Below are positions 5,265-6,825 of a stretch of DNA of 36,877 bases, in pieces. The position numbers were made by a program, and so were the translations under genes. Position 1 is the first letter of the stretch. Each line of letters starts with the position of its first letter. This DNA is from a virus: positions 1-36,877 of IMG/VR virus record IMGVR_UViG_3300042898_001774, one strand, 5' to 3'. The notes beneath the pieces were generated by a model, which worked only from the letters and a program-made list of their open reading frames with translations, had not been told where the DNA came from and searched no databases.

Positions 5265-5317
5265 GAATTTAAGAACTATCTAAATTAGAGCACCTAGTTA
5301 GTCAGACTATATAGTTG

Positions 5318-6238
5318 ATGAATATTACAGTCTGCTTTGATAAAATTGATCCAAAACCTTGGATAGAGTTGTTAAGTAGTTCTATCCAAGGTTCTTTCGT
5401 ATCGGAATGGAAACCAGGAAATGAACCTAGTGACATAGCAATTGTTTGGGAACCCCCTCAACAGTTCATAGACGAACAAAAAGACCTCAAGTTCATATTC
5501 AATATAGGTGCCGGTGTCGATTCAGTGTTGAAGCTCAAATTACCAAATACCGTAAAAGTAGTGAAACTAGATGGTCCTGATATTTCACTACAAATGGCTG
5601 AATATGTTTGTCATGCAGTAATACGTCATTTTCGTAAGTTTAACGAATATACCATTGACGCCAAAAAGAAACGCTGGACTTTAAGAAAGCCAAGAAGTCG
5701 CACTGACTTCATTATCGGTGTTATGGGATTAGGTAACACAGGTCAACGTGTAGCTAAAGCACTCAGAGTATTTGACTTTCCTGTTAACGGATATAGCCGT
5801 AGCAGCAAATACATAGAAGGCGTAACTTGTTTTTCAGGAAAAGAACAGTTCAGTGACTTCTTGGGTTCTTGCCGTGTTCTAGTAAATTTACTACCACTGA
5901 CGAGTGACACTGAGCATATATTAAATCGTGAATCATTGTCCTTACTTCCCCGCGGTGCTTATGTCATAAACGTAGCTAGAGGAAATCACTTAGTAGAGAG
6001 AGACTTAATTGAATTGATTGACAGTGGTCATTTGTCTGGTGCTACTCTTGATGTATTCAAAACTGAGCCGTTGCATACACAGCATCCATTTTGGGAACAT
6101 CCAAGTATAACAATTACCCCTCATATAGGTGCACGTATAATGCGTGAAGAAACAGTTACACAGATAGTAAGTAAGATAGAAGCAATAGGACAAGGGAAAT
6201 CTATTACCGGTGTTATTGATTCATATAAAGGATATTGA
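5318..6238 (+). CDS. ghrA: GhrA-like D-2-hydroxyacid dehydrogenase (306 aa)
   Basis: It resembles E. coli GhrA, the glyoxylate/hydroxypyruvate reductase, over its full length. Shared features are G-A-G-V-D-S near residue 65, the NAD(P) motif G-L-G-N-T-G (137-142), S-R-S after the second strand (NADPH preference), N-L-L-P, the R-G with R221, E250 in T-E-P, and H269 in T-P-H-I-G. It also shares the C-terminal ending (I-D-x-x-K-G-Y against V-D-R-A-R-G-Y). R221, E250 and H269 form the catalytic triad of the family. ATG at 5318 was chosen over TTG at 5315. It probably reduces glyoxylate or hydroxypyruvate in the host cytoplasm. It is a cellular metabolic gene inside a structural region, which suggests acquisition from a bacterium. 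Confidence 0.85.
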   Translation: MNITVCFDKIDPKPWIELLSSSIQGSFVSEWKPGNEPSDIAIVWEPPQQFIDEQKDLKFIFNIGAGVDSVLKLKLPNTVKVVKLDGPDISLQMAEYVCHAVIRHFRKFNEYTIDAKKKRWTLRKPRSRTDFIIGVMGLGNTGQRVAKALRVFDFPVNGYSRSSKYIEGVTCFSGKEQFSDFLGSCRVLVNLLPLTSDTEHILNRESLSLLPRGAYVINVARGNHLVERDLIELIDSGHLSGATLDVFKTEPLHTQHPFWEHPSITITPHIGARIMREETVTQIVSKIEAIGQGKSITGVIDSYKGY

Positions 6239-6246
6239 TAAATACT
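6237..6246 (+). promoter_or_regulatory. Candidate T4-type late promoter (GATAAATACT)
   Basis: The same ten bases as at 261-270, overlapping the stop codon of the GhrA-like gene. A transcript from here would start just ahead of the folded region at 6273-6356 and then read the thermonuclease and metallopeptidase genes. Confidence 0.4.
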
Positions 6247-6272
6247 TATAACATAAAGAACCCACCTTAGGG

Positions 6273-6356
6273 CCGGTGTCGCTATCGGTTAGAGCGTAAG
6301 CTCAGGCGTCAACAGGGCGGCTGCTGCCCTAGCAAAGAGTTACGCCAGACTCTTGC
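6273..6356 (+). ncRNA. Candidate structured RNA (four hairpins, possible pseudoknot)
   Basis: This GC-richer stretch lies between the GhrA-like and thermonuclease genes. Visible stems are 6273-6277 with 6284-6288; 6292-6295 with 6300-6303, closing a GUAA (GNRA) tetraloop; 6314-6318 with 6326-6330; and 6332-6340 with 6349-6356 (one bulged A). GGCGT at 6305-6309 is complementary to ACGCC at 6342-6346 in the loop of the last hairpin, allowing a 5-bp pseudoknot. It could be a riboswitch-like 5' leader or a small RNA. No known family was recognised. A tRNA was considered and rejected because there is no T-arm. Confidence 0.4.
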
Positions 6357-6384
6357 TCAAGTGAGCATTTATTTGAAAGACAAC

Positions 6385-6825
6385 ATGAAGAAATTTATAA
6401 CGACACTACTATTAGCACTTGTAGCAACTACTGGGTATGCACAAAAGACACCTCAGGGCGTCACATATGATGCAAACATCATCCGTGTAAGTGACGGTGA
6501 TACTATCGTTATTGCAGCACCATTTTTACCTGCGCCGTTAAAGCCGCAACTAGCAGTTAGAATATTTGGGGTCGATACTCCTGAAAAAGGATTCAGAGCT
6601 AAGTGTGAGTCTGAGAACCAACGAGGTTTGGCAGCAAGTGAATTCACTAAGAAGTTAGTCACTGCTAGTCAAAAACGACAAGTGACATTATATGATTGGG
6701 ATAAGTTTGGCGGCAGAGTCTTAGGTGATATTATATTAGATGGTAAAAGTCTAAGACAACAGTTAATTGCTAACGGCTTTGCCCGTGAGTATTTTGGCGA
6801 TGCAAAGCAATCTTGGTGTAACTAA
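6385..6825 (+). CDS. Secreted thermonuclease (SNase) family nuclease (146 aa)
   Basis: ATG at 6385 is preferred to an in-frame GTG at 6361 because it begins a clean signal peptide: M-K-K-F, a hydrophobic Leu/Ala core and G-Y-A-Q at about residue 20. The mature part is a staphylococcal-nuclease fold. D39 in S-D-G-D-T, R59, D64 and E67 in R-I-F-G-V-D-T-P-E, and R111 in G-G-R-V-L-G match S. aureus nuclease D21, R35, D40, E43 and R87. The enzyme cleaves DNA and RNA with Ca2+ and is probably exported to the periplasm or outside. Two Cys (74, 145) could form a disulfide. The folded region just upstream may control it. Confidence 0.85.
   Translation: MKKFITTLLLALVATTGYAQKTPQGVTYDANIIRVSDGDTIVIAAPFLPAPLKPQLAVRIFGVDTPEKGFRAKCESENQRGLAASEFTKKLVTASQKRQVTLYDWDKFGGRVLGDIILDGKSLRQQLIANGFAREYFGDAKQSWCN

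Follow-up and report, generated by a model that had tools for sequence, protein, structure and literature searches.

The window analysed here, an IMG/VR virus record of 36,877 nucleotides taken in full, contains a short non-coding interval between a gene for a D-isomer specific 2-hydroxyacid dehydrogenase (PF02826; 5315-6238, + strand) and one for a staphylococcal-nuclease-like protein (PF00565; 6385-6825, + strand). This locus raises the question of whether the interval encodes a functional RNA and, if so, on what the RNA acts. A preliminary description had proposed a folded RNA behind a late-type promoter, perhaps a leader controlling a toxic nuclease. Its coordinates and letters proved correct on re-reading, and the rise in GC content (0.56 at 6250-6349 versus about 0.37-0.41 upstream of it), the four stems, the GNRA tetraloop and the two complementary 5-mers were all found in the sequence. 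The promoter was likewise recovered, as the T4-late-promoter-like motif GATAAATAC read from the sequence at 6237-6245 (+ strand). We liken this motif to the late-promoter consensus, which we take to be TATAAATA; from this consensus and its presumed spacing, transcription is expected to start at around 6250. The window also encodes a DNA polymerase (phrog_262 DNA polymerase), which we read as T4-type.

The RNA element, all parts of which lie on the + strand, occupies 6256-6375, from a conserved AAGAAC through a U-rich end (alignments A1, A4 and A5), and begins about 20 nt past the dehydrogenase stop codon. In the window record, model R1 gave a single match, at 6255-6368 (29.8 bits, E 1.1e-6). 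The motif L1, CCUUAGGGCC (6265-6274), is the most highly conserved motif across all types of the RNA family described below (alignments A1-A5) and reads CCUUAGGACC in most members of type B, the type to which the window element belongs. Hairpin P2 (6273-6288, stem 6273-6277/6284-6288), defined in the window-class alignment, is followed by hairpin P2b, GAGC-GUAA-GCUC with a GNRA loop (6292-6303, stem 6292-6295/6300-6303), and by the near-invariant AGGCGUC (6304-6310), for which two alternative pairings both fit 13 of 13 relatives. Next come P3 (6314-6330, stem 6314-6318/6326-6330) with the invariant loop GGCUGCU (6319-6325), and P4 (6332-6356, stem 6337-6340/6349-6352), whose stem is lengthened by 6332-6335/6353-6356 and whose loop, UACGCCAG, is variant v2. 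The conserved 3' tail AAGUGAGC (6359-6366; alignments A1, A2 and A5) leads into the U-rich, terminator-like end AUUUAUUUG (6367-6375).

Because the folding energy is weak evidence when taken alone (-43.1 kcal/mol, z -1.86; 9 of 200 shuffles were equally good), the comparison of relatives is decisive for the fold. Among 13 close relatives forming the window class (alignment A5), 98.1% of the cells are paired and the covariation is 0.319, against 0.140 in shuffles. Compensatory changes occur in one of the five pairs of P2, three of the four of P2b, two of the five of P3 and three of the four of P4; in P2, four pairs are invariant and the fifth swaps G-U for U-A (6 and 6 of 13). For type B as a whole, 91.2% of the cells are paired (covariation 0.332 versus 0.131 in shuffles), and 119 distinct sequences split at the second pair of P3 into 61 with G-C and 58 with C-G, while all four Watson-Crick types occur at the fourth. 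In a second type, type A, 95.0% of 740 cells are paired, with a covariation of 0.418 against 0.095 when shuffled and at most 0.061 when slid, and the pseudoknot helix of this type is 100% paired, with both sides changed in four of its five pairs. The conserved fold is therefore strongly supported by covarying stems. The preliminary description had named a lack of compensatory changes in homologous regions as the outcome that would refute a functional folded RNA; such changes are plentiful in types A and B and in the window class, and the functional reading is supported.

The pseudoknot proposed in the same description (6305-6309/6342-6346, GGCGU-ACGCC) is perfect and invariant in 13 of 13 relatives, so covariation is neutral on it, neither supporting nor opposing. 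GGCGUC co-occurs with the ACGCC loop in 17 of 20 cases, and ACGCC appears without GGCGUC in 6 of 99; at best, this pairing is a feature of one subgroup. Alternatively, AGG (6304-6306) can close on the CCU of L1 (6265-6267), which fits equally well and excludes part of the GGCGU-ACGCC pseudoknot. According to RNAalifold, the commonest P4 loop (UUCGCU) would form an intramolecular helix with AGUGAG of the invariant tail.

The window element is one member of a structured RNA family that has no counterpart in Rfam 15. A 19-nt core pattern retrieved nine IMG/VR stretches, a broader pattern at least 119 and a pattern directed at the P3 loop at least 120. With chance matches removed, IMG/VR contigs yielded at least 120 distinct type B and at least 47 distinct type A sequences; five chance matches to the pattern had been dropped before counting (L104, L166, L196, L202 and the second match of L170), and the family counts exclude L205, L001, L206-L280 and L400 onward. 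L1, CCUUAGG(A/G)C, is common to all types and is all that types A and B have in common. In type B, L1 is followed by P3, with a variable stem and the invariant GGCUGCU loop, and then by P4 and the tail AAGUGAGC; the P4 stem is also variable, and its loop is mostly AUUCGCUAC, otherwise UACGCCAG, AACGCCAUU or AGUCGUGCC. An alignment of 56 type B sequences has 25 invariant columns and 5 nearly invariant ones. The GNRA hairpin P2b is optional in the family, being absent from two loci (L082 and L119). In type A, which has neither the P3 nor the P4 loop, the further parts are GGCGUCC, a pseudoknot and a 3' hairpin whose loop is AUAAAGUAA. Members are about 95-200 nt long, the window element measuring about 110 nt.

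Type C is longer and lies close behind a tRNA gene in one contig (L200) and in Limnohabitans phage DC31. It is present in two isolates, DC31 (2499-2690 of L398) and Curvibacter phage P26059A (2493-2690 of L399), neither of whose records annotates it, and model R2 detects both copies (23.6 and 19 bits). The DC31 gene after the RNA, whose product starts MTFKKGESGNLKGRPKK, resembles proteins downstream of the RNA in three contigs (L146, L147 and L200) and may be a small terminase or DUF5681 gene.

With the Rfam 15 covariance models, one of the checks that the preliminary description had proposed, the window contained no family above its curated threshold; at permissive thresholds the best hit for 6150-6450 had an E-value of 4, and 13 member loci returned tRNAs and unrelated weak matches only. 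No convincing relative emerged from phage collections queried with the window, with a member of type A, with the region of L142 or with one member of type B; another type B query led to DC31, and DC31 in turn to P26059A. A bacterial origin was considered and rejected, since neither R1 nor R2 recognised any of the 75 GTDB contig stretches that fit the pattern (best E 0.37 and 0.31). Our literature search, which covered its sources in part, turned up no published description of the family.

The genes flanking the RNA are highly diverse. Clustering by protein gave 69 groups for 122 upstream genes and 66 for 119 downstream genes, so that no consistent downstream gene or pathway of the kind expected of a riboswitch or leader was found. 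The usual position is directly after a stop codon, with a few cases behind a tRNA gene. At 80 loci encoding related nucleases, 77 of which have at least 150 nt of upstream sequence, the RNA was found 60-220 nt upstream of the nuclease gene in seven and elsewhere in the locus in a further seven. Together with the varied neighbours, and with a downstream gene that is reversed in 16 of 138 cases, these counts remove the reading of the RNA as a leader controlling a toxic nuclease. A leader peptide from the GUG of AGUGAGC (window position 6361) was rejected as well, being in frame with the next gene in 21 of 73 type B loci, as expected by chance. In the window, the dehydrogenase gene (5315-6238) separates the RNA from the gene that lies directly upstream of it in relatives L002, L085 and L089; a single further contig with a close homologue was found (L082). 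In five other loci (L084, L106, L110, L191 and L353), the product of the gene after the RNA starts with a VTWVHHWSDR-type sequence, which we take to resemble ferredoxin-NADP reductase, an unusual phage gene.

Wherever the RNA was found, it was present in one copy per record, with one architecture per genome. Model R1 matched 18 of 23, 26 of 30 and 2 of 5 records in three sets, the four non-matching records of the second being nuclease contigs added as controls; model R2 matched 20 of 38 records, once each, and none of nine in another set. When both models matched one record, they always did so at the same place, and none of the collected loci contained two elements or both types. Three weak second matches to R1 (19-23 bits) were rejected, since either L1 or the remainder of the element is missing from them. 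Most records were picked for holding the RNA, so these match counts test copy number rather than prevalence. Thirteen contigs of 60 kb or more that bear the nuclease were picked regardless of the RNA: seven contain it and six gave no match to R1 or R2. Either the RNA is not universal or these six contigs are incomplete; records may be fragments, which makes absence weak evidence. Many T4-like and other tailed phages seem to carry the family once per genome.

Several lines of evidence bear on the transcribed strand. Of 34 type A sequences, 20 have U-G and 14 have G-C at pair 103-113, and the U-G cells would read A-C on the opposite strand, which favours the + strand. P3 contains six G-U and no A-C among 476 cells; P1 shows the opposite trend (12 A-C versus 7 G-U) in a noisy parse. 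The upstream gene at 146 loci is on the same strand in 130 and on the opposite strand in 7, with no called gene nearby in 9; for the downstream gene the corresponding counts are 122, 16 and 8. The distance from stop codon to L1 has a median of 14 nt. The motif TAAATA[CTG] lies ahead of 15 of 137 members and behind 28, as compared with 43 of 2,740 random windows. The 10 nt that follow the element contain at least six T residues in 32 of 86 members of type B versus 103 of 2,740 random windows. As regards intrinsic terminators, the 32 of 86 in type B compare with a U-rich end in 1 of 51 type A members, and a GCCUUCGGG hairpin then follows in 29 of 51 members of type A. The + strand is most likely the transcribed one. 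Taken together, the strand, promoter and T-rich counts suggest that the RNA forms the 3' end of a transcription unit and that a minority of members, including that of the window, have a promoter of their own. In four loci (L286, L293, L305 and L354), the upstream reading frame extends into the RNA, its stop codon being the UAG within the CCUUAGG of L1.

What kind of element would account for these features? Since the RNA has no fixed neighbour and occurs in a single copy, the simplest account is an autonomous small RNA gene, single per genome, whose product acts in trans, and we regard this as probable; counted against it is the fact that many members occupy sites expected of a terminator. The position behind stop codons keeps as its main rival a cis-acting element at the 3' end of mRNAs, which would end or protect the upstream transcript as an elaborate terminator or decay barrier. 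The short distance to a same-strand stop codon (median 14 nt), the U-rich ends of type B, the hairpins following type A and the late-promoter-like motif after 28 of 137 members all fit such a role. However, an element of this kind should recur within a genome, yet each matched record has one; with the three weak second matches being non-members, copy number disfavours a repeated 3' element. Moreover, the 25 invariant and 5 nearly invariant columns among 56 type B sequences exceed what a terminator or barrier would be expected to need, and we consider the cis-acting element rather unlikely.

The remaining candidates are less probable still. A once-per-genome DNA site for replication origin, packaging or recombination function, folding as single-stranded DNA, would agree with the single copy and with the few G-U pairs of P3 (6 of 476), but it hardly accords with the exchange of U-G for G-C in type A (20 and 14 of 34), the presence of G-U cells in the window-class stems P2 and P4 or the 130 to 7 strand bias of upstream genes, and we give it little credence. 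Slightly better placed, although also very unlikely, is a self-cleaving ribozyme that cuts phage transcripts: the RNA is compact, about 100 nt long, pseudoknotted in type A and rich in invariant bases, whereas no Rfam ribozyme family matched it, it is present once per genome and its neighbours are not fixed. Least probable of all is a metabolite riboswitch or protein-bound leader for the next gene, here the nuclease gene. A structured RNA ahead of a coding gene, which shares its strand in 122 of 138 cases, would be in keeping with that role, but the downstream genes are unrelated (66 clusters of 119), 16 of them run in the opposite direction and only 7 of 80 nuclease loci have the RNA upstream.

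A candidate target of the conserved loops is host rRNA. The L1 consensus is the exact complement of E. coli 23S rRNA 1921-1930, to which L1 of the window is also complementary with its G opposite a U. The P4 loop of the window, UACGCCAG, complements 23S near 1969-1976, and the P3 loop, taken with its closing pair, is antisense to 16S 519-527. The 23S segment 1921-1976 presumably corresponds to helices 69-71, which we take to be universally conserved. A first comparison with rRNA element by element (30 of 90 elements) and a motif-by-motif test were weak; singly, L1 had a P-value of ~0.01 and the P3 loop (L3, 16S 530 loop) of ~0.04, and the P4 variants were nonsignificant. Only joint tests were decisive. 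With five fixed consensus motifs (L1 and four P4-loop variants) scored for the best 80-nt window in 23S and 16S on either strand, the best window was antisense to 23S 1921-2000, with a summed exact match of 38. This sum was reached by none of 2,800 first-order shuffles (maximum 34) and by none of 140 real bacterial stretches (maximum 34), which had themselves been picked for an L1-like pattern. Without L1, P4 variants v1-v3 peak at the same place in 23S, with 5 of 2,800 shuffles as good. Variant v1, for which intramolecular pairing with the tail is an alternative, was dropped in a subset test; 1 of 2,800 shuffles was then as good for L1 with v2 and v3, and none of 2,800 for L1 with v2. The antisense complementarity to rRNA is well in excess of chance if the hypothesis is taken as fixed, but the hypothesis was formed after the sequences had been seen, for which the shuffle counts make no correction.

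For this target step alone, coincidence is the more probable explanation, the conserved loops then binding a protein or each other. The post hoc nature of the test speaks for it, as does the predicted accessibility, which is not clearly higher in the conserved loops than elsewhere in the RNA. The weakness of the motifs when taken singly and the restriction of type A to L1 also count against an rRNA target. The P4 loop can also pair with the tail, and pairing of UUCGCU with the tail inside the molecule would occupy the P4 loop, which counts against docking on rRNA. Coincidence does not, however, sit easily with the shuffle results, in which none of 2,800 matched the five motifs and one matched L1 with v2 and v3, or with the landing of independent P4 variants in one 80-nt stretch. 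We tentatively propose, from sequence complementarity, that the conserved loops may target host rRNA, and this is the leading candidate for a mechanism. An RNA of about 110 nt would be a late product, driven by a late promoter of its own, like that of the window, or derived from the 3' end of the upstream mRNA; it would end at the U-rich stretch and would act in trans. Less confidently, L1 and the P4 loop would pair with 23S 1921-1976 and, in type B, the P3 loop with the 16S 530 loop, which would let the phage act on the host ribosome or on ribosome assembly. In a bolder and doubtful version, the loops, antisense to the functional centre of the ribosome, would dock by several short contacts and stall or retune ribosomes or block their assembly, with RNA D of phage T4 as a distant functional counterpart.

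In kind, the element is ordinary, an orphan phage non-coding RNA; what is unusual is that it is single-copy, independent of its neighbours and complementary to the ribosome core. PeSL cassettes of T4-type phages combine an intergenic early promoter with a simple hairpin and occur several per genome. The element here likewise has an intergenic promoter and stem-loops, but is one complex RNA. GOLLD and ROOL are described as orphan structured RNAs of phages and prophages near tRNA islands, of unknown function, and GOLLD as binding ribosomes in pull-downs (PMC12286853). The family resembles them in being phage-encoded, strongly structured and, in some members, near tRNA genes. Whereas GOLLD often exceeds 800 nt and both often lie near tRNA islands, the family here measures about 95-200 nt and lies mostly behind protein genes; membership in GOLLD or ROOL found no support, as no Rfam model matched and the window element is about 110 nt rather than several hundred. 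A precedent for the proposed 3'-end origin is the non-coding RNA of PhiKZ gene PHIKZ298, which is about 100 nt long and reported as a presumed product of mRNA 3' UTR processing (PMC8545117), although it consists of two plain stem-loops.

A further parallel is found in T4, whose small stable RNAs D (species 2) and C (species 1) are reported as late RNAs whose function is unknown (PMC9697503) and measure 119 and 139 nt. RNA D lies behind tRNA-Arg or a CDS, begins AAGAA in most relatives and, in T4 and seven relatives, forms a hairpin CCGG-GUCGCUA-CCGG, with one A for G in JE01. This hairpin, with its loop GUCGCUA, resembles P2 of the window class, but RNA D lacks the CCUUAGG motif of the family. 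With filters off, neither R1 nor R2 scored above chance at RNA D in the T4 region, and homology was thus undetected by these models; the rRNA match of the RNA D hairpin was nonsignificant (1,713 of 2,800 shuffles were as good). The likeness is a lead, not membership.

As a widespread RNA gene of T4-like phages, absent from Rfam and unannotated in both isolate records, the family would be a basic part of abundant viruses that annotation has overlooked. If the complementarity to rRNA is functional, it would provide an RNA route for phage action on the host ribosome and a concrete test for the role of small stable RNAs like T4 RNA C and D. RNA D itself is conserved in T4-like phages, with 705 records matched and 653 of them covering at least 80%. 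It is annotated as an RNA in none of the stretches from seven relatives (L402-L408), and in G3F10 a hypothetical protein is annotated across it on the opposite strand.
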